Shown: positions 12,635 through 58,995 of the stretch, in pieces
How the letters are laid out: each line of letters opens with the position of its first letter
Position numbering within the stretch: position 1 is the stretch's first letter
Source of the DNA: Anadara kagoshimensis
Taxonomy: Eukaryota; Mollusca; Bivalvia; Arcoida; Arcidae
Direction: 5' to 3'
Length of the DNA stretch: 64,000 nt
NCBI GenBank assembly: GCA_021292105.1
Contig: CM037868.1
Span: 36,024,876 to 36,088,875, forward strand
Translations under genes and position numbers: made by a program
The notes under the pieces: model-generated
Told to the model about the DNA's origin: nothing
Databases searched by the model: none
What the model saw: the letters and a program-made list of their open reading frames with translations, nothing else

Positions 12635-12779
12635 AGCACAGTACTGTCTCTGTCTATAGGATGAAGAGCTGAAATCCGGTTTTTTTGTATTAGTAATTTT
12701 GATGCATAAGTGCAAGAGGTCTCGTTACTACTGCAAACTTATTCCAAATCGATATTTGTTAAATATCTACGACTGTAAA

Positions 12780-13800: not shown

Positions 13801-13970
13801 GTTTTCTTGGCCTTTTATGATTTTCGAACCATTTATTTTAGTGATATCCAATTTGTCACGGATCTTAAAAAATGTCATTGCGTGGAATTGTGAATTCATA
13901 GTTTTGTGTTTACCATATCAGGTAAGTTTGTTTTCCGTTGACATGTAAATTCGTGGCTTAGACTATGGAA

Positions 13971-36100: not shown

Positions 36101-39100
36101 TACTCAAAGGACCAAAACATATTTTACCAAATTTAGCTAAAGAAATACTTTGCATTAGGGAGTATACCTTAGTTTTAAAGAAATTTCAAATTTTAACTTG
36201 CAGGAAATTTAGACAATTATAGTTTCTTCTGACAATAATAAAAAAGAAACATTTACAAATCTTAAAGGTGGACCAGAAGGCATTTTTGCCGAAAAAGCTC
36301 ATTTTAAGCAGTTTTTAAATGGGGTTTATAACCTACCTTAAAGGTTTTAAAATAGGACTTTTGATCAATAATATTGAGACATCATCATTGCCTCGTGATT
36401 GCCAGTTTTAAAATAATTACTGATTTGAAATTGCTAACAGGTGATTTAAAGGACGTTTAACATTTAACTATCGAAAAAAACAATCTTTAAGCAGTTCTTA
36501 AAGGTGGCTTATAACCTTTTTTAAAGGTTTTAAAACAGGACTTCAATAACATTGAAACATTGCAATTGCCTCATAAAAGGCTGTTAAAAGATAGGATTTA
36601 AACCTGTGTTAAAATGATTACTGATTTGAAAATGTACAACGCTAACAGGTGGTTTAAAGGACGTTTAACATTTAAGTATCGAAAAAAAAAACAATCTTTA
36701 AGCAGTTCTTAAAGGTGGCTTATAACCTATCTTAAAGGTTTTAAAAAGGACTTCAATAAGATTAAGACATTAGTATTGCCTCGTAAAAGGCTGTTAAAAG
36801 GTGAGGTTAAAATTAGTGTTAAAATGATTACTGATTTGAAATTATACAACGCTAACAGGTGGTTTAAAGTACATTTAACATTTAACGTTTAACATGTAAC
36901 TATCGAAAAAACATTCTTTAAGCAGTTCTTAAAGGGGGCTTATAAGCTATCTTAAACTTTTTAAAAGAGGACTTCATTAATGTTGAGACACATTATCGTC
37001 TTGTAAAGAACTGTTTAAAGATAGGATTTAAACCAGTGTTAAAATGATAACCGATTTAAAATTGTAATCTAACAGGTGATTTAAAGGGCGTTCAACATGT
37101 AACTACCGAACAACCATCTTTAAGCAGTTCTTAAAGGGGGCTTATAAGCTATCTTAAAGTTATCAAAAGAGAGATTCAATATTATGCAGACAGCATTATT
37201 GTCTCGTTAAAGGCTGTATACAGATGAGATTTAACTCAGTGTTAAAACGGTTATAGGTAAACAACATTGACCTGTCCGCTTGACCTTTCATTACAAATAT
37301 TCATATAGGAAGATTCACCAACATTTAACATGCACAGTTTACATGTGTATAAATAGTGAGTATATATCATGATGTACACAAAATAAACACCTGGGCTCCC
37401 TTTATCTAGTGTACTTGGTCCGTGATAAATATTAATATAAAGTAAAGGTCAAGCGGACACGTCAAAGTTGTTTACCTATATCTCTTTTTCATAAACAAAC
37501 AACGGTTGTTGGTTCATTGGAGAGCAAATTTTATTTCTTGTTTTTTAAATGGTGTTAAGCCGGTCAGTTCCAGAATGGTAGAGACAACCGGAATGCTTAG
37601 ATGAAACCATCGAACTTCGGCAAGCGAGCTGACAAACCTTTTCATGTACTAGAATCTGTGGCTTATTATGATTAGAACTAAGGCTATGGTAGGGAAAACC
37701 GAAGAGCTTAGAGAAAACATCAAGCGAAATGACAAACGCTTTCATATCAGGTTCTGTCCTGAGTTGGATTAGAACTAAAGCTATGAGATGCGCTATGGTA
37801 GGGAAAACCAAAGAGCTTAGAGAAAACATCAAACGAAATGGCAAACGTTTTCATACCAGGTTCTGTCGTGAATTGGGATTAGAACTAAGGCTATGAGATG
37901 AGCAATGGTAGGGAAAACCAAAGAGCTTAGAGAAAACATCAAACGAAATGACAAACGCTTTCATACCAGGTTCTGTCGTGAGTTGGATTAGAACTAAGGA
38001 TATGAGATGCGGTTTGATCCGTTAGTAAGCGCTTTAGACCGCTCAGTCACTGTTAGATGTTTAATTCATGTTTTATTTACAGGGGAAAGATTGAACTTCA
38101 ATAATGGTAATGCACTAAGCAACTCGAAGATCATTTCGTATGATAAACAACAGATAATGACTGTCCAAGTATGTTTATAATTTTTTGCCTTGATTTGCAT
38201 AAGGGAGTTCTTGTTTGAATTTCTTCTCGAGTCTAATTTTTAGTGAGCTTGAAATAAAAGACACGACTGATTCCTCAAGTTTTGTTTCATACTTAGACTT
38301 ATACCTGAATTATGACGCACACTAAAGGCTACATTTGAAACTTTATGACAAACGTTATGACTTCAATTTTTCTATTGTTAACTTTTCTTTTTTATACCTG
38401 CTTCTCCTGCTTATGGTGTATTTGTTTCCCAATTAATACGCTATGATATACCTTGTTCCCACTATTGGTATAACCTAACTTGTCAGTTCCAAAGTTTTTA
38501 CTTTGCTTCTGGATTGTGATTCTGATATGGATTAGTATGTTTGTTTTTGATTATATATTTTTTCAATTTTGTTTTTACAGCACTAGATGGCCCGTGTCGG
38601 AATACAATTCCTGCTTGGGCCAAAATTTAAAAAGATAACCAAAGGGCCTAAATACATTTTGCCCAATTTAGCTAAAGAAATACATTTCACTAAGGAGTAT
38701 ACATTAGGTTTTGATGAATTGAGATTTTAAATTACAGTAAATTTGAACAATAGTTTATCTCTTACATTTATACACAATTATTGCCTACTGGGTTTTTTAT
38801 ATTCTCGGGAACACATTCACCAGCAGAGACTTGAAAGAGGAGAATGATTGTTCTTTCGTCTCACATCTTTAATGTATAATATAAAACACTGATAAATACC
38901 TTAAAATGTTTGCCATATGTTTCCCTAATTATTGCTCTAAGAATATCAATGTTAAAAAAATTCCGTGAATGATGGTTTCTAGTTGTTCTCGACCTGTACA
39001 CTATATTCAATTTAATAAATCCGTCATACATTTAAGCAACGGCAAACGTAACATATAACCAGAATTGTTTCTACGCACTATGCATGAAACCTTTAAATTG

Positions 39101-42100
39101 AACAAAACTTACAATAACATATCATACCAAAATTAATTTTGGACACTAGACGGTTGTTTCGAAATACACTTCCTCATCGGTAGTGCTTGGGCCAAACTGT
39201 GACACCTTCATTTTATTAAATGGAATGAAAATAGGATATTTGAAATCCTGAACAGAATATATTGGGTTTTTTTCAGGCGCCATTAACCGGAAGATGGCAA
39301 TTCGTTGGTAACCATGGTAACAAGGATTTGGTTGTAAATATAACAGCACAAAGTGATTTAGATTTTACTTTTACACTTATGCAACCCAATAAGGAAGGAT
39401 ATGTGTACGAATCAGTGGGTAATCCAGTTGTAGGTAAAATCATATTTTTTCAATTATCAATAGAAATGTTTTAATAATGTAACACTAAAACTTTTAGCTT
39501 TCCATCTTTTTTATCGTACATTTGCGACACTGAAAAGAGTGGATTTTTTTTTACCAAATATCATATCAAAAAATATATCATATATAACTGTAAATCAGGA
39601 AGCGTTTATTTTTAGCGAAAATTGCGAAAATCAATCTTTTCCAAGTATTTTATATTGATGTGTTCAACTGCAGTATCACCTTGAGAATAAAAAGGTACAT
39701 GACTATCTGAAAATGGCGAGTTTCGCGACATTTAACAGTGAAAATGTCTATTTGCAAAATTTTACATTTTTTTATCTTTTTTTTTATTTTTATTTTTGTA
39801 CTCTGTTTTACACATTTATTGATTAATCGTAGAAGTAAGCTATAAACAGCAAAGCAGAACGGGTTACTAAAATTCAAGTCAGTGCGAATCCGATTCTTTT
39901 ATAATGTACAGCAATCATCATCATTTTACTTTAGCTAGTCTACGTAAGGCAGTTCTCAGTTCAACTAAAAAAGAACTTCACAGCAAAATCAACGAAATTT
40001 TGTAAAAGAATTTGGGAACTAACACAAATAAGCCTTACCCGTTAACATTTTGTCATTTTATCTAATCCCTTTCAGCTGATTCTATGATTAAAAAATAACC
40101 GTCTCTAGTTTTAGTGCAAATTTTTAATATTTACCTTTTACGTTGCAGGTCAAAATTACACTACTATTATCACAGTGTTTGGATTTAACATCACTGGAAA
40201 AAATGGAGTTCTCAGATTGTTAGATTTAAATGGCGAATTAATAACAGAATACAACTTACAAATAGATTCTGATTTAAACACAATGACGAATCAGTATTTT
40301 ACGTCAATTACCATGGTACAACAGGTAACGAAGCCCCACAAATATCTGAAATAGGAAGAGCTTGTTCCAAATACGGGAACATTATACAACAACGAATCAA
40401 GCTACTTTCCAATAATTTGTTAACCCAAAAGGGATATTGCAAGACATGGCTTCTCGGGCACTCAAAAAGCCTTCTTGTCGTCATCATATTTTTTTTGAAA
40501 AGAATGAATGTCTATATCTATTGTAGAGCATTATACAAAGAAGCAAGATGCTAACAGATCAATTGTTTATCCCAGGTGTATTGCAAGACCAGGTGAAAAG
40601 TTTTCTTGCAGTCATCATCATATTATTAAAAAGAATGATTATAACATTGTTGAAACGTATGGTGTTTCTTTGTCAGGGTATACCCTGAATATATTCGATA
40701 TTCCATAGTTCCTTTTATTCTCAATTCATTCTTGTTCCATTTTCCTTCTCAATTTTTATATCACTCGTGGTAGGTGTACCTATTAGTATGTATCTTTCTT
40801 GTACACCCAACCTTGCATCTCTAGTCAAAGTTCACTTGTGTTTCTTAATTTGTCATCCATAAATGTCTTTACTTTTATTTGGACATAAATTGGAATGTTT
40901 GATTTGTTGTGTTTTGGGACCAATTATGTTTTAATCTAATTCAGAAGTTGAGGATTCAAGTTCAATACATTGATAAAATCTCCAGTCTTAATATTTGCAT
41001 CTTTCACTAAGTCAAGGTACATTTTCTGTAAAACGTTTATTAATCTACTGTTTTTCATATATAGGTCGGTTGGAGCAAATAAATATTCATTAGATATATT
41101 CGGCTTTGGAGTTTTGTGCTTCGTTCTAGTACACAAGATAAGCATCGCTAATCACTCAAATTGTTATACTGATACTAAGCCAAATGCGAATAATCTGAAA
41201 AGACATTATTTTGTTTTCAGAAATTTGTTTTTCAATTAATTACGCAAGACGAACTTGGAAATACCTTAAAAAGAATTAAATGGCTGATTATTAATCCAGT
41301 AAACATAAAGCTTCATCTAATCCCCATATATGGTAGGTAATTGTATATTTGTACGAATTACGGATATTTGAGTCCTAAGACTTGTCGGAAACCCCGGATT
41401 AACATCCTTGGTAGAAGGTTGTGTGTTGAAATACTTCCTTCAAATAAGCGTATTTATGGACAGCTTGTTATGATATAAGTCTAATAATTGAATGTTGCTT
41501 AATGTCGCGTCAGCAATTTTTCAGCTTTTCGCGACTATAACTATTTATTAATTTCTATGGATTAATCTACGAAAGTCTGCCTTGTACTAGGGCGTCTTTA
41601 AGGTGCTAGCTCACTGAGTCAGTGTGCCACAGACAAGCGTACTACTCCCTCAGTCCAATATACTGATACCAGGTAAACCAGTAATGGCCAATATGTCAAG
41701 AAAAATTTACTTTTCCATATGTAGTCTGAGCGGGACTCGAAATCAAAGGGGTGAAAAACCCTGAATTTGTAGACTGACGTCTTATCTATTAGGCCACCGC
41801 GGGCTCAATTTATGAAATAAGCGAGAAGCTTTGAAACCATTCAATAGACCTATCAGTTTACTACTCGATCGATATATACTACAGTTGCCGTTGACATCGG
41901 GTATTTAGTAATCAATATATGTTTTACCTGTACGCTGTTTTAATATGATGCATATTTCTTTCGCGCAGTTTATCGAAGTTTTCGAAAATATTTTAAAGAT
42001 TTCTTATTTTTTAAGAAATAACATTCCATTTGAGTGTATTAATTTGGTATTATGAATCAGAGTCAGGAATAGCATATTTAACATGAAGGCAAATACCGAA

Positions 42101-45100
42101 TGGATACACTCAAATAGAATGTTATTTCTTATATTTACGATCATAATAATATATTGTTAACACTTCAGAAATGTAAAGATATCACTATACTGATTTATTT
42201 TATCCATAATTCCCACAAAGATATGGGTTTGATGGAACAGCTTTTTTCAAATTAGGATAGAAAGGTTGGAACTAGGTTAGAATTCTGACCAATCAAACAT
42301 TACGTGACGTAATAGAATAATATTCTTTGACGTAATCGGATCGTGTTAAAAGTTACGTCATCAGAGGTCACGATCCACACCGCATTCATGAGGATTAAAT
42401 GCCAACAAAACAAATGGAGTCAATTCTTGCTGTAAATAAATGTTTATAATATTCACTAGACTTTCCATCTATAGAGGTAAAAATTCGATGTGCAAAAAAT
42501 TAAAAAGGATCTAAATAAAATTTGATGACACAAAACAGTGCCATTGGTTTGGTTGTTTTAAAAAACAAATATACCAATCAATGTCAAAATAACAATCCTA
42601 AAACAACGTTAAAATTTGCAACTTGCAAATTAACAATAAACTAACATACTAATCCATGTTCGAATCACAATACAGAAGCAAAGTAAAAACTTTGGAACTG
42701 ACAAGTAAGGTTGGATTCGCAAACTTTCACCGGGGAAGTGAGGCCGGCTGCTCCGAAACGGTAAATTAAGTTAGTTAAACACATGAACTTCTACCAGGGA
42801 AGTGAAGATAAAGTATTTCTGTGTCAAAAATTACTCTAGACACATTTGACGTCTTATAGTCTTAACTTCCTTTCATTCTTAATGTTCAGAAGACACTTAG
42901 CAGTTGCAGCTAACTAAACAGAATTTGCTTACCATTCCAGCGCATCCGGCTCCACTTCTCTTGTAAACTGTTCACGTGTTTAACTTTATTTCCAAAATAT
43001 CAGTTTGAAATTGTGTCTTGGACTCAATGTTTATGTTTGATTATCAATTGATTTTTTAATTACAACCAAGAAACTTAAATTCAAAGAATATAAATTATTT
43101 CACAGCACTTTATTATCTTTACCCTTCCGGAACACCTGGCCTCACTTTCCTGAAGGTCCACGTGTTTAACATAATTACCCAGTTTTAAAGTGTTTTATTT
43201 GCTTTGGGAATGCAATTTGGACATACAAACGGGTAAAGTAGCTTAATAGTTAGTATCAGAGAAGTTCACGTATCAGGAAGTTCACGTATCGCCGGCCACG
43301 CCTTTTATGTTCCGACACTAGCCGCCATCACGATACCAAAGAAGTGTCAAGGCAACTTATGACGTTATAGTGTCAGTGACGTCATTAAATATCACAATTC
43401 ATGTAGAGTTTTTATTCTTTTTGCGTGTAATTCTAACATGCTGGGCTTCTGTCGGAACATTGTGGGCGTGGCCGGCGATCCGTCAATTGGTCAATTTCAA
43501 AGTTTTTACTTTGCTTTAGGATTGCAATTTGAAATGAAAAAGTATGTTTGTTTTTATGGTTATTGGACTTCAATTCAATTTTTATTCCTTTCAGATATGC
43601 TTATAGATGGAATAGAGAAAAATATATCTTATCGTATATATAACCCGAGTAATTTTGCCGAAAATTTAGTATCAGAGATCGAAATAAATTCTGGAAATAT
43701 TGTTTCGTCAGCAACAAGGCATCACTTGGTAGAAGCAGGTTCATTGATAGAAGATTACTTTACTATCAGAGCCGACATACTTTCATCTGATATAATGTAA
43801 GTACGTTTTATTTATTGGAAAAAATTGTAAAAACATGGACTGGTTTGTTGTGAATTTAAAAAAGACACACAAGTCCAAGTCCAAATCGTGATACCATTCC
43901 CATGAAACAATCTCCAATCATAAACAAAGATCATACTACAAAAAATCAAAAACAAACATACTAATCCACGTCCGAATCATAATCCAAAAGCAAAGTAAAA
44001 ACTTTGGAACTGACATGTTAGGTTAGACACGTAAACTTCCACCAGGGAAGTGAGGCCGGGTGGTCCGGAAGGGTAAGCACCTCCTGTTTAGCTAGCTACA
44101 CCCGCCACGTGTGTAATCAAAATTGTGTGAAAGGAACATGGAACTATGAGACGTCAAATATATATGTAATAAAAAATTATTTCATCTTTAAAATGTTCGT
44201 TTTTAATGTGTGAAAAAAAGTTTGTCATTTTATGGAAAGTCATGGGTTCGCCCGATCTTACCAAAGACTTGAATCAGGACAGTGACTGTCCTTTTACCTA
44301 GCACACGGCTTTACGATATGAAAGTCACGGTTTTTTCTGATGGGAACTTGAAATAAACGAGACCCCGTGTCACGATAAAAAACACTGCTGTATAATGTCA
44401 TCAGCGCAACACAAGCAAACTTTCTGCTCCTAGAGGTTTAGATATAAGTGAAATATTCTTGAATGGAATATTTAACACAATTTCTAAACTCATCTTATCA
44501 TTATTGAATATATTCAAACACTTTGTCGTCACTAATGAATGGGAAGCAACCGCTGGAAAAATTATTTAGCTTTTATTTTCCACTAATCTATGAAGCAAAT
44601 AATGTTTTAAAGTAACTGAACTTTTTTATTGTAGAATTTATAATATAAAGGTTAAACCATCTGGATCTCAAGAAACATTACAGTCTTTGTCAAGTCGATT
44701 AAAAGTAAGTTATAATTTTGGTTTCATAATTTTGGTCCAAGCACTACTGATGAGAAATTGTATTCCGAAACGGCCGTCTAGTGCTGTTAAATTAAAACTG
44801 GTATAATATGTAATTACATATACAGTGAATTGGGAAATTTTTCGCTTGGCGTTTATCTCGCATAAATTCGCTGTACTTGACAAGACGCGAAATCTTCTGG
44901 AATATTTAAGATTGTTTTATTTCCGTCTCCTTCGCGCTGGATGTTAGTTCATTGTATGAACAGATTTAAACGTGAATGTCTTGAAGTTATTTATAAACTG
45001 ACGCAAGAATTCAACATGATACATGGACCATTCCCAGCTTATTTTTGCGAAGATTGGCCTATAAGACAGTAGATTCCGAGGATCGATTGTGTTGTTTGTT

Positions 45101-48100
45101 TTAGAGCTAAAGTAAATGTATTTTGTATTATTACACCTTATGTAAAAATCTAACAATTTCATTAGATAAGAGGTATGTAACAATTTGTACTGTCACATAA
45201 AATTTATAATGTCACATATTGCTGCGCGTGACTATGTGACAGTACTTTTGTTGGAGTCGCCTCCCTTCATTTGATCACGTCAGCGCTTTGAACAACGCAT
45301 GTTTTCAGACGTGTCTACGACAAGTGTCTCATTGTTATTGATATTGTTTACATTCGTCTGTAACAACGACGGGTCATTAAGCAGGCCGTGGATACGTTTC
45401 TTAACTTTCGTGGCTAAAATGACTGTGCATTTGAGACATTCCCGGTCGATAAATTGAATGAAAAGTGGTATAGACATTACGAAAGACATCATGATTGGTA
45501 AAATAAAACAAACATTCGGTGTAATAAAATAAATATCGCCTCGGCAAACAATGCTTCCTCAAGGTGACAATATGTACCGGCACCCTGTCAGAAATGTAAT
45601 ATTTATATATTATCACATGGAACAAGGGAAAACATTTTATTAAAACCTAATTAGCAGACTTGCTCCATGTAATACACGCCAATACGTCATCCATTTCTCT
45701 TTCAGGTCACGAATATACGACATCCAGTTTGCCAAATTGTGTTCAAAAGGGGATCTTGTGAAAATGTTACTCGTGGAAACTGCATTCAACACAAATGGTT
45801 TGCAGTTACAGAGACCATGTTTTCGGGTGTCGGGATATCGTCAGTTTCATTAGCTAAAACAGGGCCACATATCAATTTAACAATTGGAGATACAGATACT
45901 TTTTATGGACCATTACAAGTTAATATCAGGTACGGAATGTACAAAATGTGATTTATAAAGGCTGTGGTACGTTAAATAGCTTGCTTTAAAATGCATTTGA
46001 ATACAGTCAAACTAGTCTATAAAGGCAACACAAGGGAACCAGTAATAGTGGCTTTACAGGCAGGTGATCTTTATATAAAGGTTCAAATAATATGAATAAA
46101 GCACAATTGCAATACAATTCTATTGACCTTTATAAACAGATGACCCTCATATAGAGGTTGCCTTTAAGACAAGTTTGACTGTATATGAAACAATTTATAA
46201 TGGCCGATTAGATGAACATCTCCAAACAAACCAGTATTCATTTAACGTTACTGCGTTTAAGACATATTTCTGTTTCGTCAAAAAAAATTCAAAAACCTGG
46301 CATGGGTAATCTTAACTATTGCCAATGTTAAACTCCTATTATATGTAATTCAATAGTAATTTTGTCATTCTTTATCACAACAAATTTTGATATATTGAAA
46401 GATAATAAGTCTACACATGCACATAACACCACTGGGTACCTTTAAACCGCGTGTCAGTTCCAAGTTGGTACTTTCAGCATCATGTGTACAACTATATAGA
46501 ATTATTAGATTGCTATATTTCTTAGTTTTTTTCATGTTTACTTCGTTTCATTTTTTGCTAGTTTACTTCCCTGGTAGAAGCTAAATAAATGTGTTTTCCC
46601 AAATTTGCGAGTTTTTCTATGGTATGTGTTCACGTGTTTACCTTATTTTTCAGTTTTATTTTACTGATTTTTGTGTTTGTTCGATATTAACACGTAACAC
46701 GTATTACCAATGTTTAAGCCACCAATTGATTTTGTTGCACCTTAAGTGGGAGGTCGTGGGTTTAATCCCTGTCCGGGTTTGACCCAAGACTTGAAAGTGG
46801 GAAGTGACTGTATTTTCGCCAAGCACTCGGCATAACGAAATGAAAGTCCCGGTTCTTTCGGATGGGAACTTAAAATAAACGAGGTCCCGTGTCACAGTGG
46901 GCTTGGTACGCTAAAGAACCCTGCTGTATAATGCCATCAGCGCGACGCACAGGCAAAATTTCTGCGTTTTCGCCTACAGCTGGCGACGTCTCAATATAAG
47001 TGAAATATTCTTGACTGGGACGTTAAACACCATTACTCAACTCAACCAATTGATTTTGCCTTATTATTTTAGTGGAACTTGTTGCGAGAGTTACAATCGT
47101 TTGGAGGTATTGGATACAGATGCTTATCTTGCTTATTGCAATTTATTATTTTCGTCTGAAGTACAATTGCACGTTAAAGAAAATGTAAAGGTAATTATAA
47201 TGCATAATATGATTCTGGATGTATTAGTAGGGCCAAGACGGCGTTCATTGTTCATTGATCAATTACAAGTGTTTTATTTTTAGTTTATAAGTTTTACCTT
47301 TGCATTGAGATTAATTTGGACACGGATTAGTTAGTTTATGTCTTGTTGAACATTTAAGTTCATCCATAATATAGATAAATGTCAAATGAATACATATATA
47401 CAAAGTCACAAGCTTGTACACTTAATACAAACATGTTTGGCGCAGAACAGAGTGTAACGAATATGTATCGCATCTGATTCATTCATCATTTTTTCTCATT
47501 TATGTCGTATAGTTAACAAAACATTTTACGGCCGTCATGACAGTGTTGTTTCTCTGTGTTCAAGGTTGTCCTGGATATATTTGACGTCCCACAATTTTAT
47601 GTTTAATTTTGATTACACACGTGGCGGGTGTAGCTAGCTAAATAGGAGGCGCCTACTCTTGTAGGTATTGATTAACCATCACTTTGATACAAAGATCAAG
47701 GTCATGGGTTCAAAGGTTAAGGTCACAGAAGCAACATAATATTGAAATTGTTAATTTTCTCAAAAATTATCCGCAAAATTGAACTTTTTGTATAGTCATG
47801 TATATTGGAATGTTGTAGGTAATAGTACAATGGTCATTTTAATATATGAATGAAGGTCATGGGTTCAAAGGTCAAGGTCACAGATAGAAACAAGTACTGA
47901 AATGAATATTTATCTCAAAAACTTTAACTTTTTGTATCGTATATTAGAATATTAGCCATATGATTATTTTGATATATTAATTAACCTCATGGGTTCAAAG
48001 GTCAAGGTCACAGGTGAGCGCTAAGGCCCATGGGCCTCTTGTTTATTACAAGCTAGCTTAACAGGGAGTGTTTACCCTTTCGGAGCACCTGGTCTCACTT

Positions 48101-48497
48101 GCTTGGTGTAAGTTCGCGTGTTTTACCTGATTTGTCTATTTCAAAGTTTTTATTTTGCTTCTGGATTATGATTCCGACATGAATTAGTATGCTTGTTTTT
48201 GATTATATCGTATCGTTTACAAGCTAACTAACCAGGATTTCTTTCAGAGCACCCGGCCTCACTTTCCTGGCGTAAGTTTGCGTTTTCATTTTGGTTCTGG
48301 ATTAGGATTCTGATATGGATTATTATTATTTTTTAATTTTACATACACATATTATGTTTATTCTGTTTCAGGAACAAGAATGGAAGATAGTACCCATTAT
48401 CTGTATAACACTAGGAGTTATATTCGCCTTCATTCTTTTGTCCATTGCATTAGTGAAATTCGTCAAACACAGGCAAAGTACTTTCAATGTCAAATGA
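15000..48497 (+). CDS. VWA7-like type I membrane glycoprotein, 20 exons, 986 aa
   Basis: Joining the 20 exons listed below gives one continuous frame from ATG 15000 to TGA 48495-48497, with matching phases at every junction. Order of parts: signal peptide (about 1-21), WTHEAIT (34-40), FYSNTNWVE (156-164), LTSGY (218-222), GKCSHGG (239-245), a GINKD stretch (258-262), VWA domain (about 320-510) with DKSTS at 325-329, GGGTD at 392-396 and YTDAD at 421-425, beta-rich C-terminal segments, then a membrane helix (about 951-975) and a short basic tail. This order matches vertebrate VWA7 (G7c), whose usual length is near 890 residues. The metal site is complete, so ligand binding through a divalent cation is plausible; the ligand is unknown. 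The VWA region carries RRKR (457-460) and RTKR (475-478), possible furin sites. The assignment rests on motif recognition; cDNA would settle exon borders and any 5' UTR exon. Confidence 0.88.
15343..15552. mobile_element. Palindromic MITE P, complete copy in intron 1
   Basis: AATTGACGTATCGCCGGCC at the left is answered by GGCCAGCGATCCGTCAATT at the right. The longer arms include CCCACTGTGTTCCGACA and TGTCGGAACATTGTGGG. The interior holds TTTAATGACGTCACTGACAC and a GCTGCTTTGGTACCGTGATG block. Other copies: 13971/14301, 28652-28828, 43284-43488 and a fragment at 57260-57412. No coding capacity. Confidence 0.88.
15606..15945 (+). repeat. SINE family B, diverged full-length copy
   Basis: tRNA-like head with GTAGCTCAATTGGCAGAGTG and GTAGGTTCGAACCACAACC, then the family body in diverged form (ATAAAAGTCACAGGCTCCTT, TCGATATAAGTGAAATATTC). 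It sits about 55 bp from MITE P. Confidence 0.8.
16093..16235 (+). repeat. Interspersed repeat C, partial
   Basis: Contains GGGTGCTTACCCTTCCGGAG, GGTGGAAGTTCACGTG, ACTTGTCAGTTCCAAAG and GATTGTGATTCGGACATGG. Its end (TTTGTTTGTGTTTTTGTTTT) merges into the 41-bp array that follows, which appears to have grown from this terminus. Family C has about 18 copies in the window; I do not recognise it. Confidence 0.8.
16235..17196. repeat. 41-bp minisatellite, about 23 units, intron 1
   Basis: The unit is AGCATGCAAACTGAGACACT then TTCTGTTTGTGTTTTTGTTTT. Variants are GCATGCTAAC and GCATGCAGACTAAG, and the first units alternate between them. Each unit holds a T-rich tract ending TTTTAG before CATGC, which looks like a 3' splice acceptor. 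Frames on either strand reading KQKHKQKVSQ or its reverse are by-products of the period. Confidence 0.95.
17376..17603. mobile_element. Foldback MITE, 'CTGTCGAAAGTTTAACAC' family
   Basis: Starts TACAGGCCTGTCGAAAGTTT and ends TTTTCGACAAGCCTGTA. The interior shares words with 2603-2813. Confidence 0.75.
17604..17993. repeat. Tandem duplication of about 193 bp containing short MITE copies
   Basis: Two nearly identical copies start TATGTAAAATAAGTGCACAT and run through ACAATTTCCCATTGATAAAA to TTAAAACTACAGAACTGTCG. Each carries a short inverted-repeat element (17722-17802 and 17916-17993) bounded by TACAGAACTGTCGAAAGTTT and its complement. A third, decayed piece of the unit lies at about 18280-18370. 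Confidence 0.8.
17992..18254. mobile_element. MITE with about 60-bp inverted repeats, 'GGCCCCCGTTTCAC' type
   Basis: CTGGCCCCCGTTTCACAATC at the left is the complement of GATTGTGAAACGGGGGCCAG at the right. The arms extend through TTAGCTAAGATTTTCCTTAA. The interior is AT-rich and non-coding. Confidence 0.88.
18375..18676 (+). repeat. SINE family A, full-length
   Basis: Complete tRNA-like head (GTGGCCTAGTGGTTAAGG, GGGTTCGATCCC), the central domain and tail. ACAGAACTGTCG flanks it (18363-18374 and 18677-18688), so it inserted into a copy of the 'CTGTCGAAAG' MITE. This is the best family A copy in the window for reconstructing the element. Confidence 0.92.
18846..19190 (+). repeat. SINE family B
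   Basis: Head with GATAGCTTAGTTGGCAGAGT and TTGTGCATTTGAACCCCGAC, then the family body to an ACACCATTACTAAAATCAC tail. It lies close behind the family A SINE. Confidence 0.82.
19314..19560 (+). repeat. Tandem duplication of about 128 bp
   Basis: Two copies begin CTTGCTCAGTCTGTTTCATT and run through TCTAGTTGTAAGCGTCCTCT to GAGACACGGG. The end resembles the GTCACGGGGCCTC part of SINE B, so the unit is probably SINE-derived. Confidence 0.75.
20033..20136. mobile_element. 104-bp palindromic MITE
   Basis: CTTTGGCAGGTTACACGGTC at the left is answered by GATCGTGTAACCTGCCAAAG at the right. ACCCCGTCAAAGAT and ATCTTTGACGGGG form the inner arms around a roughly 25-bp loop. Confidence 0.85.
20460..20815. 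repeat. CT-rich microsatellite cluster
   Basis: Several (CT)n tracts (about 20490-20504, 20620-20669 and 20770-20800) are spaced by a recurring AAAATAAATATGGACAACTT motif. This is a compound repeat with a period of about 100-150 bp, beginning near 20300. Confidence 0.85.
20929..21051 (+). CDS. VWA7-like exon 2 (residues 76-116)
   Basis: Acceptor TTTCATCAG|AC, donor G|GTATGT, phases 1 and 1. It encodes DHDGFERYENMIKDIIREN then a charged stretch ending EEIKA. Confidence 0.85.
21065..21240. mobile_element. MITE with TACTGTAGATCA-type ends, right after exon 2
   Basis: TACTGTAGACCATCTTTATT at the left pairs with AATAAGTGATCTACAGTA at the right. The interior is rich in TTCGCG and CGCGAA. A relative in inverse orientation lies at 27180-27412. 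It starts 14 bp past exon 2, so the donor of intron 2 borders the element. Confidence 0.85.
21241..22064. other. Intron 2 remainder
   Basis: Contains a small hairpin GTATCACCACACTATGGTGATAC (two halves of 10-11 bp, near 21551-21573) and a run of TCCGGAATTTC/TTCCGGATTT words at about 21890-22010. No exon is seen. Confidence 0.5.
22065..22238 (+). CDS. VWA7-like exon 3 (residues 117-174)
   Basis: Acceptor CGTATAG|GC, donor G|GTATGT, phases 1 and 1. It encodes YIGQYLYTLQSFYSNTNWVE, the most conserved N-terminal signature of the family. Confidence 0.9.
23467..23685 (-). repeat. tRNA-derived SINE, family C2, copy 1
   Basis: On the minus strand the head reads GAGGTCGCGGTGGCCTAATG, GATAAGACGTCAGTCTAC and a box B-like AAGTTTGAGTC. 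The body is about 150 bp with CCTGGTGTCAGTATAATG. Copy 2 lies at 24145-24362 as part of the segmental duplication. A diverged relative lies at 41495-41808. Confidence 0.75.
24145..24362 (-). repeat. tRNA-derived SINE, family C2, copy 2
   Basis: Second copy made by the intron 3 duplication; same boxes and body with few substitutions. Confidence 0.75.
24510..24591 (+). CDS. VWA7-like exon 4 (residues 175-201)
   Basis: Acceptor TTGTAG|GT, donor AG|GTATGT, phases 1 and 2. It encodes KIKFAGFFTPTCVSKNFNV; the PTC cysteine corresponds to the conserved P-TC motif of the family. Confidence 0.8.
24834..24925 (+). CDS. VWA7-like exon 5 (residues 202-232)
   Basis: Acceptor ATAATTTCAG|T, donor A|GTAAGT, phases 2 and 1. 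It encodes SIEGRSCENNIIVTDKLTSG followed by YRSG; C-ENNI and LTSGY are family landmarks. Its donor is the first unit of the array at 24921-25455. Confidence 0.85.
24921..25455 (+). repeat. Degenerate minisatellite starting at the exon 5 donor
   Basis: About 13-14 units of 30-50 bp share (A)TTGATGATAGATGGCGCTGT followed by AAGTAGRACAT or CAGTAAGTGACGT. The first unit includes the real splice donor (TGTCA|GTAAGTGACGTA), and the second repeats that 13-base context exactly. Later units keep TGTAAGTAG or decay. An isolated unit occurs at about 26062-26085. The array is intronic and non-coding. Confidence 0.88.
26328..26470 (+). repeat. Interspersed repeat C, partial
   Basis: TTGCTTACCCTTCCAGACCA, GTGGAAGTCCACGTGTCTAA, GTCAGTTCCAAAGTTTTTAC and GATTCGGACATGGATTAGTA. 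It ends about 25 bp before the exon 6 acceptor. Confidence 0.85.
26497..26679 (+). CDS. VWA7-like exon 6 (residues 233-293)
   Basis: Acceptor TATTTAG|TT, donor G|GTAATT, phases 1 and 1. It encodes GKCSHGGEFDSS, then CGINKDTGHPRYSPHWFLHH and a helix into the VWA domain. The GKCSHGG and GINKD motifs are the clearest match to VWA7. Confidence 0.9.
26680..27179. other. Intron 6, first part, nothing recognised
   Basis: AT-rich; no exon-like frame with splice borders. Confidence 0.5.
27180..27412. mobile_element. MITE with TACTGTAGATCA-type ends, inverse copy
   Basis: TACAGTAGATCAGTCATTTT at the left pairs with AAAAGTGATCTACAGTA at the right. Shares ATTCGCGAATGGGATGCGTC with the complement of the 21065-21240 copy. 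Confidence 0.85.
27590..27676. mobile_element. Small foldback element
   Basis: GTGGAGACATAGAAATCTCA and GAGATAGCTGTTTTGACTTC at the left pair imperfectly with AAAACAG and CTCTCATCTCCAC at the right. Likely a decayed MITE. Confidence 0.5.
28120..28338 (+). CDS. VWA7-like exon 7 (residues 294-366), start of VWA domain
   Basis: Acceptor TTTCATTTAG|AC, donor G|GTATGT, phases 1 and 1. It encodes SLAFVIDKSTSMKEEIEQV: the first VWA beta strand with the DxSxS metal-site motif complete. GSPMEPANYVLVTFSDP follows, matching the second strand of VWA7 closely. Confidence 0.92.
28652..28828. mobile_element. Palindromic MITE P, inverse orientation
   Basis: AATTGACGTATCGCAGGCC to GGCCGGCGATCCGTCAATT. The interior GTAGCAAAGCAGCGTCACGG lies on the left here and on the right in 15343-15552. 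Confidence 0.85.
28829..30480. other. Intron 7, middle part, two small inverted repeats
   Basis: A palindrome spans 29619-29662 (GTGTAAGCTATCTCCATCTT answered by AAGATAGCCTACAC). A second pair, GTGCCAGATA at about 29794 and TATCTGGCAC at about 29862, bounds a possible MITE. An antisense frame near 29977-30213 overlaps a sense frame; neither has support. Confidence 0.5.
30488..30783 (+). repeat. Interspersed repeat C, nearly complete
   Basis: Starts AAGGCCATCAAAAAGTTTTA, continues GTCTCTGTGTCCAGGATTGC, GACGTTCCATAGTACCATGT, GTGCTTACCCTTACGGAGCA, TTGCTTCTGGATTGTGATTC and ends TTAGTTTGTTTTTGATTA. A good template for the family. Confidence 0.85.
31078..31235 (-). repeat. Interspersed repeat C, partial
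   Basis: Reverse complement of the family end: AACAAACATACTAACC, GTCCGAATCACAATCCAGAA, CACCAGGGAAGTGAG, GCTAGCTACACCCACCACGT. It stops about 40 bp before exon 8. Confidence 0.85.
31276..31398 (+). CDS. VWA7-like exon 8 (residues 367-407)
   Basis: Acceptor AATGTTTCAG|AA, donor G|GTATTT (a weaker donor), phases 1 and 1. It encodes NVIGGGTDCPELTFSGLNK; GGGTD supplies the threonine of the VWA metal site. Five decayed copies of its 3' half follow directly in the intron. Confidence 0.87.
31452..31990 (+). repeat. Five decaying tandem copies of the 3' half of exon 8
   Basis: Units of about 105-120 bp each carry a version of the exon 8 end (GTCATAG-GGAGGC-, GACTGTCCGGAACTAACC, TTTTCCGGTTTGAATGAAGG) plus the donor and the start of the intron. 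Copies start near 31467, 31567, 31687, 31807 and 31912. Copies 1 and 4 carry a stop in the exon frame; copies 2, 3 and 5 keep it open. Copy 2 still ends AATGAAG|GTATTT, while copy 5 has GAC in place of the donor GT. None has an acceptor-like upstream edge, so none is called an exon. Confidence 0.9.
32060..32345 (-). repeat. SINE family B, decayed
   Basis: Minus-strand body recognised by GACGTCGCCAGCTAAAGGC, TTATTTTAGGTTCTCATCCG, ATTTCGTTATGCCGAATGCT and CACTTCCCACTTTCAGGTCT. The head is degraded (AACCACGACCACCTGCTTAC). Confidence 0.75.
32346..32877. other. Intron 8 end, nothing firm
   Basis: Two or three weak repeats of CTCGATATAAGTGA(GA)AAAC-type words occur at about 32610-32780. No exon seen. 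Confidence 0.4.
32878..33063 (+). CDS. VWA7-like exon 9 (residues 408-469)
   Basis: Acceptor AACACTAG|CT, donor G|GTATAC, phases 1 and 1. It encodes STITCYTDADSKD, with the third metal-site aspartate, then ISITFYKFPSPCSRRKRSSE. RRKR fits the furin consensus. Confidence 0.87.
33085..33817. other. Intron 9 with decayed repeat C pieces
   Basis: Degenerate family C words (CTGGATATATTTGACACC, ATAGTTCCA, GTTCGCTTGTTTTACTTA) occur at about 33100-33310 and 33590-33700. No exon. Confidence 0.5.
33818..33945 (+). CDS. VWA7-like exon 10 (residues 470-512)
   Basis: Acceptor TCTTAAAG|TA, donor ATG|GTAACT, phases 1 and 0. The alternative AG seven bases later gives an early stop, which fixes this acceptor. 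It encodes REKRTKRSVS, then EVALATGGKVHSVTLETLAS, the last strand and helix of the VWA fold, matching the VWA7 'ALASGGEV' segment. Confidence 0.85.
34010..34800. repeat. Degenerate tandem repeat, about 95-105-bp units, intron 10
   Basis: Units share TTATTTTGTCAGTAGACTAA, ACATTCAAGACTTTTG, CCCGCCTTTCTCAATTTT and TTCTTTTTCGATATTTTG. About eight units are present; one is interrupted by a ribozyme-bearing element at about 34420-34570. Confidence 0.85.
34461..34505 (-). ncRNA. Hammerhead ribozyme (type I), antisense to the gene
   Basis: On the minus strand: AGCACTA | CTGATGA | GGAAGTTATTAC | GAAA | CGGCCG | TC | TAGTGCT. The stem I strands AGCACTA and TAGTGCT pair fully, and the CUGAUGA, GAAA and GUC core is intact. 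Stem III is minimal (CG/CG with a two-base loop), as in ribozymes of Penelope-like elements and metazoan retrozymes that cleave best as dimers. Stem II has a G-A mismatch at its second pair. The repeat bearing it extends from about 34432 to 34570 and matches copies at 35985-36230 and 38565-38770. Confidence 0.82.
34800..35262. repeat. Perfect 74-bp tandem array, about six units
   Basis: The unit runs ATTAAGACTAAGTACATTCA, AGACTTGTTCATCTAGTTCG, CCGCCCTTTTTCATTTTGG, TAGTACTTTTTCGGT. Unit starts fall every 74 bases (34861, 34935, 35009, 35083, 35157, 35231) and I see no differences between units. It evolved from the flanking 100-bp repeat by loss of part of the unit, followed by recent expansion. 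Confidence 0.95.
35310..35455 (+). repeat. Interspersed repeat C, diverged
   Basis: TAGCTAGCTAGAGTGGAGGT, TTACCCTTCTGGGACACC and ACCGGTATGTTTTATTTTGA. Confidence 0.6.
35780..35933 (+). CDS. VWA7-like exon 11 (residues 513-563)
   Basis: Acceptor TTATTTTAG|GAG, donor G|GTAAAA, phases 0 and 1. It encodes KFSSAEVCIDFFILQSSST, ADFYVDKSMFSLRIAVTG, DEVYVTSPSG: the start of the beta-sandwich-like region after the VWA domain. Confidence 0.83.
36008..36053 (-). ncRNA. Hammerhead ribozyme, decayed copy (antisense)
   Basis: Stem I (AGCACTA/TAGTGCT), perfect stem II (GGAAT tgt ATTCC), GAAA and CGGCCG are kept. The core is CTAATGA instead of CTGATGA and the cleavage triplet is GCC instead of GTC. Both changes should abolish cleavage. 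The surrounding repeat (about 35985-36230) is the longest copy in the window and shares a 100-150 bp segment (AAGATGTTGAAAAGCTAC, AATTTAGCTAAAGAAATAC) with 38565-38770. Confidence 0.78.
36276..37250. repeat. Tandem repeat of about 185-220 bp, five units, intron 11
   Basis: Units share TTTAAGCAGTTCTTAAAGGT, GGCTTATAACCT, AAAATGATTACTGATTTGAA, AACAGGTGGTTTAAAGGACG and TTTAACATTTAA. The landmark TTTAAGCAG recurs near 36303, 36487, 36698, 36919 and 37121. Units differ by small indels and substitutions. Confidence 0.88.
37253..37479. mobile_element. 227-bp MITE with about 36-bp inverted repeats
   Basis: ATAGGTAAACAACATTGACC at the left is answered by TTGTTTACCTAT at the right. GTCCGCTTGACCTTT and AAAGGTCAAGCGGACA form the inner arms. 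Non-coding AT-rich interior. Confidence 0.85.
37580..38010. repeat. Tandem repeat of about 108-110 bp, four units, intron 11
   Basis: Units share GAACTAAGGCTATG, GGTAGGGAAAACC, GAGCTTAGAGAAAACATC, GAAATGACAAACGCTTTCAT and CAGGTTCTGTC. GAGCTTAGAGAAAACATC recurs near 37704, 37813 and 37922; the first unit is diverged (ATGCTTAGATGAAACCATC). Confidence 0.88.
38083..38168 (+). CDS. VWA7-like exon 12 (residues 564-592)
   Basis: Acceptor TTTATTTACAG|GG, donor CAA|GTATGT, phases 1 and 0. It encodes GERLNFNNGNALSNS then KIISYDKQQIMTVQ, a linking strand. Confidence 0.75.
38455..38555 (+). repeat. Interspersed repeat C, end fragment
   Basis: TAACCTAACTTGTCAGTTCC, TTTTACTTTGCTTCTGGATT and GATTAGTATGTTTGTTTTTG. 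Confidence 0.8.
38565..38770 (-). mobile_element. Ribozyme-family element, core deleted
   Basis: Matches 35985-36230 in TACAGCACTAGATGGCCCGT, CGGAATACAATTCCT and AATTTAGCTAAAGAAATACA. The CUGAUGA segment and one stem I strand are deleted (CCTGCTTGGGCC where CCTCATCAGTAGTGCTTGG is expected). It cannot form the ribozyme. Confidence 0.7.
39144..39187 (-). ncRNA. Hammerhead ribozyme, decayed copy (antisense)
   Basis: Minus strand: AGCACTA | CCGATGA | GGAAGTGTATTTC | GAAA | CAACCG | TC | TAGTGT. GAAA and GTC are intact and stem II pairs (GGAA/TTTC with one wobble). The core has C for U at its second position, stem III has lost pairing, and stem I is reduced to five pairs. It lies about 90 bp before exon 13. 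Confidence 0.7.
39277..39433 (+). CDS. VWA7-like exon 13 (residues 593-644)
   Basis: Acceptor TTTTTTTCAG|GCG, donor G|GTAAAA, phases 0 and 1. It encodes APLTGRWQFVGNHGNKDLVV, ITAQSDLDFTFTLM and VGNPVVG. TG-W followed by a QSDLDF stretch matches the post-VWA region of VWA7 well. Confidence 0.88.
39434..40148. other. Intron 13, nothing recognised
   Basis: AT-rich with a T-rich tract at about 39768-39795. No exon or structured repeat seen. Confidence 0.5.
40149..40324 (+). CDS. VWA7-like exon 14 (residues 645-703)
   Basis: Acceptor ACGTTGCAG|GT, donor CAG|GTAACG, phases 1 and 0. It encodes YTTIITVFGFNITGKNGVLR, LLDLNGELITEYNL and a beta-rich end. Confidence 0.82.
40655..40905 (+). repeat. Interspersed repeat C, strongly diverged
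   Basis: Recognised by TTTCTTTGTCAGGGTATACC, CCTGAATATATTCGATATTC and CATAGTTCC; the end is barely readable. Confidence 0.45.
41221..41332 (+). CDS. VWA7-like exon 15 (residues 704-740)
   Basis: Acceptor TTGTTTTCAG|AAA, donor G|GTAGGT, phases 0 and 1. It encodes KFVFQLITQDELGNTLKRI, matching the FSLELIGQDAAG stretch of VWA7. Confidence 0.85.
41495..41808 (-). repeat. tRNA-derived SINE, family C2, diverged
   Basis: Minus-strand head GAGCCCGCGGTGGCCTAATA and GATAAGACGTCAGTCTAC, then the family body (GGTTTACCTGGTATCAGTAT) and an AATGTTGCTTAATGTCGCGT end on the plus strand. Clearly older than the two intron 3 copies. Confidence 0.7.
42014..42133. mobile_element. Foldback element, about 28-bp arms
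   Basis: AAGAAATAACATTCCATTTG at the left is answered by CAAATAGAATGTTATTTCTT at the right, with GAGTGTAT/ATACACTC inside. The loop is about 65 bp. Confidence 0.75.
42640..42780 (-). repeat. Interspersed repeat C, partial
   Basis: AACATACTAATCCATGTTCG, AATCACAATACAGAAGCAAA, TTTGGAACTGACAAGTAAGG and CACCGGGGAAGTGAGGCC. A diverged plus-strand copy (about 42810-43040) and another fragment at 43105-43215 follow, so intron 15 holds three. Confidence 0.8.
43105..43215 (+). repeat. Interspersed repeat C, fragment
   Basis: TTACCCTTCCGGAACACCTG, GTCCACGTGTTTAACATAAT and GCAATTTGGACATACAAACG. Confidence 0.7.
43284..43488. mobile_element. Palindromic MITE P, intron 15
   Basis: ACGTATCGCCGGCCACGCC to GGCGTGGCCGGCGATCCGTC, with inverse-type interior (CACGATACCAAAGAAGTGTC). 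Its left tip is replaced by a 16-bp direct repeat (GAAGTTCACGTATC). It ends about 105 bp before exon 16. Confidence 0.85.
43595..43796 (+). CDS. VWA7-like exon 16 (residues 741-807)
   Basis: Acceptor TATTCCTTTCAG|AT, donor AT|GTAAGT, phases 1 and 2. It encodes DGIEKNISYRIYNPSNFAE, then ATRHHLVEAGSLIEDYFTIR. A beta-rich extracellular segment; no separate domain recognised. Confidence 0.83.
43945..44165 (-). repeat. Interspersed repeat C, longer copy
   Basis: ATCAAAAACAAACATACTAA, GGAACTGACATGTTAGGTTA, CCACCAGGGAAGTGAGGCCG, AAGCACCTCCTGTTTAGCTA, CACCCGCCACGTGTGTAATC and GGAACTATGAGACGTCAAAT. Confidence 0.85.
44245..44490 (+). repeat. SINE family B, 5'-truncated
   Basis: Starts near box B (CATGGGTTCGCCCGATC) and keeps the body: AAAGACTTGAATCAGGACAG, GAAATAAACGAGACCCCGTG, TGCTGTATAATGTCATCAGC, GATATAAGTGAAATATTCTT. 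Confidence 0.8.
44635..44704 (+). CDS. VWA7-like exon 17 (residues 808-831)
   Basis: Acceptor TTTTTATTGTAG|A, donor AAA|GTAAGT, phases 2 and 0. It encodes IYNIKVKPSGSQETLQSLSS then RLK. Short, but both splice sites are strong and the phases fit. Confidence 0.8.
44740..44785 (+). ncRNA. Hammerhead ribozyme (type I), sense strand, core intact
   Basis: Reads AGCACTA | CTGATGA | GAAATTGTATTCC | GAAA | CGGCCG | TC | TAGTGCT. Stem I has seven pairs. Stem II pairs as GAAAT/ATTCC with one A-C mismatch. Stem III is only CG/CG around two bases, and all conserved core bases plus the GUC cleavage triplet are present. It lies 35 bases inside intron 17, in the same direction as the gene, so the pre-mRNA would contain it. 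Such minimal stem III ribozymes cut weakly alone and better as dimers. The 3' flank (AAAACTGGTATAATATGTAA) matches the antisense copies, so it belongs to the same element family. Confidence 0.87.
45186..45247. mobile_element. Small inverted repeat in intron 17
   Basis: GTACTGTCACATA at the left is answered by TATGTGACAGTAC at the right, with CACATATTGCTGCGCGTG between. Antisense frames just downstream (45280-45625) have no recognisable homology and are not called. Confidence 0.6.
45706..45929 (+). CDS. VWA7-like exon 18 (residues 832-905)
   Basis: Acceptor CTCTTTCAG|GTC, donor AG|GTACGG, phases 0 and 2. It encodes VTNIRHPVCQIVFKRGSCEN then CIQHKWFAVTETMFSG and NLTIGDTDTFYGP. Cysteines at VCQ, SCE and NCI may pair with one another. 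Confidence 0.83.
46745..47045 (+). repeat. SINE family B ending next to exon 19
   Basis: 5'-truncated at box B (GGTCGTGGGTTTAATCCC); body complete to the CACCATTACTCAACTCAACC tail. The tail stops about 27 bp before the exon 19 acceptor, so the branch point of intron 18 may lie in SINE sequence. Confidence 0.88.
47073..47190 (+). CDS. VWA7-like exon 19 (residues 906-945)
   Basis: Acceptor TTATTATTTTAG|T, donor AAG|GTAATT, phases 2 and 0. It encodes SGTCCESYNRLEVLDTDAYL and a beta-rich end (FSSEVQLHVKENVK). A near-identical copy lies at 62660-62777. Confidence 0.87.
47515..47660 (+). repeat. Interspersed repeat C, left half
   Basis: AAAACATTTTACGGCCGTCA, TTCTCTGTGTTCAAGGTTGT, TGGATATATTTGACGTCCCA, TTACACACGTGGCGGGTGTA and a TAGGAGGCGCCTACTC end. 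Confidence 0.8.
47690..48038 (+). repeat. Tandem repeat of about 145 bp, three units
   Basis: Each unit contains AAGGTCATGGGTTCAAAGGT, CAAGGTCACAGA and a TTTTTGTATCGTATATTAGA-like end. The array ends GGTGAGCGCTAAGGCCCATG then GGCCTCTTGTTT, a terminus that recurs widely in bivalve genomes. Confidence 0.8.
48050..48330 (+). repeat. Interspersed repeat C, two adjacent end fragments
   Basis: The first fragment has GTGTTTACCCTTTCGGAGCA and ATTATGATTCCGACATGAAT; the second has TTTCTTTCAGAGCACCCGGC and GGATTAGGATTCTGATATGG. The second ends 40 bp before exon 20. Confidence 0.75.
48372..48497 (+). CDS. VWA7-like exon 20 (residues 946-986 and stop)
   Basis: Acceptor TATTCTGTTTCAG|GAA, phase 0. It encodes the membrane segment IVPIICITLGVIFAFILLSI and a short basic tail (KFVKHRQSTFNVK), then TGA. 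The tail is only about 11 residues, so signalling motifs are unlikely. Confidence 0.88.
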   Translation, partial: EQEWKIVPIICITLGVIFAFILLSIALVKFVKHRQSTFNVK

Positions 48498-48742
48498 AGT
48501 CACCAACGGCTTTGATCTTGTCGCAACCAAAAGACGTAGTATTTTCTTATTTTATTATCTAAGACAGTATGAACGAGATATTTTATTAATTACGTGAGAA
48601 AAACTCGTCAACCTCATTCAAAATACCTTTCTTGTAAATGAAATGATATGATACGATATAATATTCTAAACGAAACGTCATATCATTGCAACCAAAAACA
48701 TGCAATATTCTGATAAAATTGTGTTCGATAATTTTACGATGC

Positions 48743-48748
48743 AATAAA
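48743..48748 (+). promoter_or_regulatory. Polyadenylation signal AATAAA
   Basis: The first canonical AATAAA after the stop codon, 246 bases downstream, followed by a T-rich stretch (TTTTTCTATTCTTTGTG). It would give a 3' UTR of about 270 bases. Confidence 0.6.
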
Positions 48749-48770
48749 TACGATTTTTCTATTCTTTGTG

Positions 48771-48818
48771 TTAGTGAAATTTGTGAAACACAGTAACAGT
48801 ACATTCTATGTCAGCTGA
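48771..48818 (+). pseudogene. Degenerate second copy of the C-terminal tail
   Basis: The 16-codon frame reads LVKFVKHSNSTFYVS then stop, against LVKFVKHRQSTFNVK at the end of exon 20. The upstream piece GCAACCAAAAACATG (48686) likewise echoes GCAACCAAAAGACG (48519). A local duplication of the gene's 3' end is the simplest reading. No acceptor precedes it, and it lies past the polyadenylation signal. Confidence 0.65.
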
Positions 48819-48903
48819 AATCATGAGATTTTATCATTTTAATACCAAATGTATGCTAACCGCGATTTGAAAAAAAAACTTGAACACATGTTTAATATAT
48901 CAT

Positions 48904-56227: not shown

Positions 56228-56460
56228 AATTGTAATCAAAAACAAACATACTAATGAATGTCCGTATCACAATACAGAAGCAAAGTAAAAAACTTTAAAA
56301 CTGACAAGTTTAGTTAGACACGTTACTTTCAACAGTTAGGTAAAGCCGGGTGCTCTGGAAGGGTAAGCATCTCCTGTTGAGCTAGCTACACCCGCCACGT
56401 GTGTAATCAAAATTGTGTGAAAGGAACGTGGAAGTATGGGACGTGAAATATATTCAGGGC
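56228..56460 (-). repeat. Interspersed repeat C
   Basis: AATCAAAAACAAACATACTA, GTCCGTATCACAATACAGAA, GAAGGGTAAGCATCTCCTGT, TACACCCGCCACGTGTGTAA and GAAATATATTCAGGGCAATC. Confidence 0.83.
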
Positions 56461-57412: not shown

Positions 57413-57941
57413 CAAATTTCCGAAGATATCACAAACTTAGTAAGCAATATTTTTTTATTGTCAGAAATGTTTTTTTTTTCAAAATGTCCCGCTTTTTAAA
57501 AATTTAAAAATTTGAGTATGTAATTGCTCACTGATAAATAATATAATTGAAACTGATTAGTCCATGTCCAGCTCAGAAACCCGACTGTCAATACTGACAG
57601 ATAAAGCCTAATGCGTGAACTTCAAGGAAATGAGGTCGAATGCTCCAGAATACTCGGTACCTCTTGCCTAGCTAGATACAGCCTCCGTATGTTAAACTCT
57701 TCTGATTTGTCAATATTTTATGGTGATTTTTTGAAAACATTTTTTTTTATTTTTAGCAATACCACTAAACCTTAAAGGTTAGGGGATGTTTTGTCAATTA
57801 AACAGTGACAAAATTGTCGTATCCATATTTTGCAGCAACTTTTAGGTTTAGAAAATATGACAATTATTCTTTCTTTTGTGGTTGCATGACAGATTGAGAT
57901 TTATGAAAACAGGTTAAAATGGATTTTAAAGTCATCGGGTA

Positions 57942-58669: not shown

Positions 58670-58995
58670 GCTTATCAAGGCCCTCAAAAAGTTTTATGGC
58701 CGTCCTCACAGTATTAATGATAAGTTTTGTGTCTGTGTCCAGGAATACCCTGGATATACTTGACGTCCCATGGTTCCATGTTCCTTTCACACAATTTTGA
58801 TTACACACGTGGCGGATGAAGCTAGCTTAACAGGAGGTGCTTACCCTTCCGGAGCACCCGGCCTCACTTCCTGGTGGAAGTTTTGGTGTCTAACCTGATT
58901 TGTCAGTTCCAAACTTTTTACTTTACTTCGGGATTGTGATTCGGACATTGATTAGTGTGTTTGCTTTTGATTCGGACATGGATAAGTATGTTTGT
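58670..58995 (+). repeat. Interspersed repeat C, nearly complete
   Basis: CTTATCAAGGCCCTCAAAAA, GTGTCCAGGAATACCCTGGA, GACGTCCCATGGTTCCATGT, CTTACCCTTCCGGAGCACCC and GTGATTCGGACATTGATTAG. The last 20-25 bases are repeated (ATTCGGACATGGATAAGTAT). Confidence 0.87.

Follow-up and report, generated by a model that had tools for sequence, protein, structure and literature searches.

The locus and its hammerhead motif

The stretch of DNA analysed here (64,000 nt, referred to below as the window) carries sequences related to VWA7 on its + strand. Pfam places VWA7_N at 26484-26669 (+; 55.5 bits, above the cut-off), VWA_4 at 28194-28343 (+; 82.3 bits for two stretches) and a further, weak VWA7_N match at 22139-22252 (+; 20.6 bits, below the cut-off), and since VWA7_N and VWA_4 lie on this strand a VWA7-like gene runs in the same direction. 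An earlier note on this DNA had described a sense-strand hammerhead ribozyme within an intron of such a gene. This context stands as far as the strand and the upstream domains are concerned, but the exon said to precede the intron lacks homology support: a homology search with 44635-44704 found nothing, nor did a search of viral contigs for this exon, and Pfam over 34001-48900 returned nothing VWA7-like, the one weak match being to ORF6N, below the cut-off. The putative donor GT occupies 44705-44706 and the motif does begin 35 bases beyond it, at 44740. The features of this region are as follows.

44635-44704, +: putative VWA7-like exon, defined by AG/GT signals and an open frame only; donor GT at 44705-44706
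44740-44746, +: hammerhead stem I, 5′ strand, AGCACTA (sequence, fold)
44747-44753, +: conserved core CTGATGA (sequence)
44754-44766, +: stem II, GAAATTGTATTCC, with an A44755-C44765 mismatch and a TGT loop (sequence, folding)
44767-44770, +: conserved core GAAA (sequence)
44770-44777, +: palindrome ACGGCCGT, giving a stem III of 2 bp in the monomer and 8 bp between two copies (folding)
44771-44775, +: CGGCC (sequence)
44776-44778, +: GTC, cleavage expected after C44778 (sequence; analogy with hammerheads)
44779-44785, +: hammerhead stem I, 3′ strand, TAGTGCT (sequence, fold)

All hammerhead core letters are present between 44747 and 44778, and the elements over 44740-44785 follow each other as in a type I hammerhead, with cleavage expected after C44778 by analogy with other hammerheads. 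The letters and their order had been read correctly, with stem I, CTGATGA, GAAA, the palindrome and GTC all located. Stem II, previously described as paired, is not fully so: A44755 faces C44765, a position at which 63 of the 89 distinct family sequences introduced below have a G-C pair and nine the same A-C combination. Stem III of the monomer consists of two pairs closing a GGCC loop.

A fixed-spacing core pattern allowing up to three mismatches matches the window four times, where 0.03 matches are expected from 100 shuffles. One of the matches, at 45813-45844, shows no further similarity to the repeat described below and is probably noise. The Rfam covariance search, which the earlier note had proposed with the lack of a significant score as part of what should speak against the motif, detected no hammerhead family in the window at a cut-off as permissive as E ≤ 10. 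This miss is weak evidence because Hammerhead_1 is at its limit for sequences of this kind: in a near-perfect 339-bp array serving as a positive control it reports a single copy out of five, with a score of 28.1 bits against a gathering threshold of 34 and an E-value of 2.9e-4.

A dispersed family of ~340-bp repeats

The host's own genome (1.115 Gb, 36 contigs) was searched with the pattern CTGATGAGN11CGAAACNNNNGTC. It contains 6,643 exact matches (3,306 + 3,337), while the reversed pattern, used as a control, yields none; the core exactly as found in the window copy occurs three times among the roughly 100 matches listed. Five hammerheads follow each other at intervals of 338-339 nt at G000:C1:310542-311928, a stretch that Tandem Repeats Finder describes as 339 bp x 5.0 with 98% match, and further ribozyme pairs are spaced 325-363 nt apart. 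Each unit of the array carries the core letters and stems of a type I hammerhead. The unit has a GC content of 33.6% and its longest stop-to-stop frame, taken over the doubled unit, is 83 codons. No LTR, PBS or PPT was seen in the five-unit array and its flanks, and nothing resembling the unit was found in phages. On its sequence the family fits the published metazoan non-LTR retrozymes, whose numerous units of 150-450 bp in short tandem repeats have less than 50% GC and encode no protein, and the earlier pointer towards these elements is thus borne out by a dispersed repeat of ~340 bp. Near the start of the unit (locus L009, near 1771-1840) self-complementary CTGAG..CTCAG and GATATC..GATATC sequences could form a conserved hairpin.

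The flanks of the window ribozyme align to the unit outside the hammerhead. The motif does lie at 44740-44785 (+) as originally delimited, but these 46 bases are too small a feature, since they form the 3′ part of a repeat spanning 44715-44815. The insertion begins 10 nt downstream of the G that opens the putative donor, and GTAAGT is preserved. Beyond it the window carries five more stretches of the ~340-bp repeat and two scraps, all placed by alignment to the family unit:

44715-44815, +: 5′-truncated solo retrozyme copy covering the final ~100 nt of the ~340-nt unit; 97.1% identical over 102 aligned columns
35978-36245, −: retrozyme copy, 91.5%, with an altered core (CTAATGA, GCC)
34431-34561, −: retrozyme copy, 86.2%, with a shortened stem II
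39113-39219, −: retrozyme copy, 76% (81% over 39113-39196), core CCGATGA
38550-38829, −: degenerate retrozyme copy, 71% (two pieces, 77% and 84%)
22251-22390, +: degenerate retrozyme relic, 74.5%, ribozyme unrecognisable
27174-27091 and 57420-57508: two internal retrozyme scraps

The copy at 44715-44815 is 90% identical to the one at 36015, and in the copy at 34431-34561 the core lies at 34468-34498 with a stem II shorter by 1 nt. We consider it highly probable (about 0.9) that 44715-44815 is a solitary, 5′-truncated insertion of a metazoan non-LTR retrozyme, i.e. of a ~340-bp multicopy retroelement with no long frame and one type I hammerhead per unit. The motif in the window is a slightly damaged, ordinary decayed copy of this family.

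Folding predictions, which ignore the tertiary contacts of hammerheads and can only serve as a guide, point to the dimer as the form in which the family ribozyme would be active. For the majority hammerhead of the family, 77 nt long, the monomer hammerhead has −10.2 kcal/mol compared with −14.7 kcal/mol for the minimum free energy (MFE) structure; for two majority copies the dimer MFE structure is essentially a double hammerhead with an 8-bp stem III (ACGGCCGU), at −39.3 versus 2 x −14.7 kcal/mol. The suggestion that dimer-type cleavage is the likely active form is supported by this predicted preference. It also agrees with PMC7761336, which describes many type I hammerheads with a weak helix III as acting as dimers. 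On the other hand, most invertebrate retrozyme hammerheads cleave well according to PMC7229834, which counts against a strict dependence on dimers here. The window copy fares worse than the majority sequence, its monomer hammerhead being at −3.2 versus an MFE of −11.8 kcal/mol and its dimer MFE at −31.1 kcal/mol with a shifted stem II; it is predicted to be a poor monomer ribozyme. The single 339-nt unit is no more stable than its shuffles (z 0.12).

Copy ends and the mode of insertion

Two samples of copies, both from one contig (C1), were used to read the ends of the insertions. The first is anchored on the hammerhead and derives from 72 regions around places among the first ~100 matches listed, with up to eight core mismatches allowed, six regions that duplicated a place removed and each set of identical 3′ flanks entered once. 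Of its 67 copies, 56 have their 3′ end between −4 and +9 nt from the unit junction; the other 11 end 7-41 nt early, and one further copy is cut by the end of the locus. The second sample is anchored on the tail and contains 87 unique copies (loci L081-L163). Here the choice of pattern fixes the 3′ end and leaves the 5′ end free, and removal of array-internal junctions and repeated 3′ flanks leaves 69 copies. Their 5′ ends are scattered, the distance to the 3′ end ranging from 25 nt to at least 764 nt (the upper figure is limited by the length of sequence covered) and exceeding one unit in seven of the 69. By eye, at least four apparent 5′ ends (L112, L124, L132, L146) are internal deletions, with the repeat found again directly upstream. 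Most of the copies sampled on C1 are dispersed solo copies.

Copies that share a 3′ end but differ in their 5′ ends are characteristic of target-primed reverse transcription. On the sequences at hand these ends favour target-primed copying that runs across the ribozyme cut site, and copies that cross this site or exceed one unit need a circular or an uncleaved multimeric template. We would put at about even odds the more specific proposal that insertion occurs by target-primed reverse transcription starting always at the same position, 37 nt 3′ of the cut, on a circular or uncleaved multimeric template, over a random distance and sometimes for more than one lap. At the unit junctions of L010 and L031 short repeated 3′ tails lie between tandem units, as might result from restarts or template jumps of a reverse transcriptase.

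If the templates were cleaved linear RNAs, 5′ ends should accumulate at the cut site. Copies throughout the genome were therefore counted in which all four bases preceding offset d from the cut differ from the family. The raw counts are 22 at d = −2, 25 at d = 0, 12 at d = +1, 10 at d = +2 and 15 at d = +3; divided by a rough pass chance for AT-rich flanks they become 46, 65, 39, 40 and 49, respectively. By eye, seven to nine of the 25 copies at d = 0 are apparent small indels in longer copies, and the same holds for several at d = +1, +2 and +3. There is no clear peak among these five offsets, and a genomic footprint of ribozyme cleavage, with 5′ ends exactly at the cut, is unsupported.

Target-site duplications of metazoan retrozymes, when present, exceed 4 bp. 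At least 7 nt are shared between the flanks in nine of 69 copies, compared with 4.3 expected (maximum 10 in 200 shuffles), and the mean shared length of 5.14 is slightly above the shuffle maximum of 5.07. A second test gave six of 70 copies versus 2.3 expected (maximum 7 in 500 shuffles). From these flanks target-site duplications are not established, which weighs against target-primed insertion, with one of the two tests leaning towards them.

The scheme that we propose for the family would start with transcription of tandem source loci, the transcripts cutting themselves mainly as paired dimeric hammerheads via the palindromic stem III (ACGGCCGU). The cleaved monomers would probably be ligated into circles. 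A borrowed reverse transcriptase would then start at one fixed point (..GTAATT) and copy the circular or uncleaved RNA over a variable distance, at times for more than one lap, and the outcome would be 5′-truncated solo copies or short tandem arrays. Transcription, cleavage and circles are inferred for this family by analogy with the published mussel family. The reverse transcriptase of retrozymes is left open in PMC7229834, with LINEs or Penelope-like elements proposed. If true, the target-primed model would indicate, in this one species, machinery of the LINE or Penelope type and not of the integrase type. The family, with 3′ and 5′ ends legible in thousands of copies, offers useful material on the mobility of animal retrozymes; a partial literature search found no paper on 5′-truncated retrozyme copies by title.

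The ribozyme itself appears hardly better kept than the remainder of the unit. In the tail-anchored sample its conservation outside CpG is 92.9%, against 91.3% for the rest of the unit, the catalytic letters being at 92.3%, and all core letters checked are retained in 39 of the 70 ribozyme-spanning copies, an intact tail having been the criterion for this sample. The window and the two samples together give 89 distinct ribozyme sequences, in which the double changes that keep a pair number three, compared with 3.0 in shuffles, i.e. there are no compensatory changes above expectation. In these sequences selection on the ribozyme is not apparent for single inserted copies; the ribozyme would rather be kept in the source elements.

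Known systems and alternative readings

This kind of element has been described in coral, mussel and axolotl in PMC7229834. The same source reports for the mussel Mytilus galloprovincialis ~5,000 type I hammerheads, usually in repeats of ~350-390 bp, with a k of ~0.1 per min and abundant circles. The present family resembles the mussel retrozymes, as far as they are described there, in its thousands of type I hammerheads, set in AT-rich repeats a few hundred bp long, in its tandem copies without visible LTRs and in its likely minimal tertiary contacts. The unit is 339 bp here versus ~350-390 bp in the mussel, the two being likened by description, and here most sampled copies are truncated solo insertions. 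Transcription, cleavage and circles were demonstrated in the mussel (PMC7229834), while for the family here they are predicted from the DNA sequence. The satellite hammerheads of newt and axolotl likewise combine a dimer-dependent type I hammerhead with tandem repeats (PMC7229834), but by their description there the host presumably belongs to another phylum and the sequence would be a different one. Plant LTR retrozymes are also non-autonomous elements with hammerheads (PMC4918200); they have type III hammerheads, LTRs and 4-bp duplications according to PMC7229834, whereas the family here is of type I with no LTR seen.

The motif could alternatively be part of a Penelope-like element; such elements have minimal type I hammerheads in their pseudo-LTRs. 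Tandem arrays and 5′ truncation also fit such elements, and the arrays and truncated copies seen here are compatible with this origin. The minimal, palindromic stem III, weak and favouring dimers, is moreover like that of the Penelope-like hammerheads described in PMC7761336. The unit, however, closes on itself in the 339-bp array and has no frame above 83 codons, and, unlike Penelope-like elements as portrayed there, no coding element accompanies the copies when the unit's own frames are looked at. The short tail copies have no single common upstream element, coding or other, three pairs of them sharing other repeats or being duplicates. We therefore regard a Penelope-like fragment as improbable.

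Ordinary satellite DNA or a DNA transposon, spreading at the DNA level with the motif as a passive passenger, would account for the tandem arrays and for target-site duplications that are not established. Most sampled copies, however, are solo and dispersed, sharing their 3′ end and differing in their 5′ ends, a pattern unlike either class, which makes this explanation very improbable.

A functional intronic ribozyme of the VWA7-like gene, in which a cut at intron position 74 would modulate splicing or produce a small RNA, has in its favour the sense strand, the nearby plausible donor and the intact core letters. The motif is nevertheless a copy of a genome-wide repeat with a stem II mismatch, its hammerhead fold lies 8.6 kcal/mol above the monomer MFE, and the family shows neither compensatory changes nor notably stronger conservation of the ribozyme than of the remaining unit. 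On these grounds a lone functional intronic ribozyme was rejected, as a reading with very little probability indeed. The role in splicing or in circular RNA that had been proposed for this locus is likewise unsupported for what is a truncated single unit with a damaged stem II, one among thousands. Being a single unit, the window copy cannot release unit-length RNA; it may cleave weakly in the pre-mRNA, but most likely it is inert or nearly so. A chance match within the AT-rich intron, with which the missing Rfam hit would agree, has practically no probability given the counts for the core pattern in the window and in the genome. No story of gene regulation is to be built on the window ribozyme: a suspected gene-specific ribozyme becomes a single copy of a catalytic-RNA parasite present in thousands, and the interest resides in this wider family rather than in the window copy.

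Other repeats are found in the window as well. A tRNA-like stretch at 18384-18447 (+; Rfam tRNA, 30.3 bits) is perhaps the head of a tRNA-derived SINE, and there are other long tandem arrays at 34802-35261, 16217-17201 and 12772-13811, with units of 74, 41 and 50 bp. An abundant dispersed repeat of ~85 nt has more than ten strong matches in the window, and sequence similar to it adjoins, by eye, some of the retrozyme copies (L009, L110, L087, L117). Its matches are the following.

42631-42712, 43922-44028, 48120-48208, 26382-26466, 31070-31155, 56233-56319, 58888-58972, 63719-63805 and others: ~85-nt repeat
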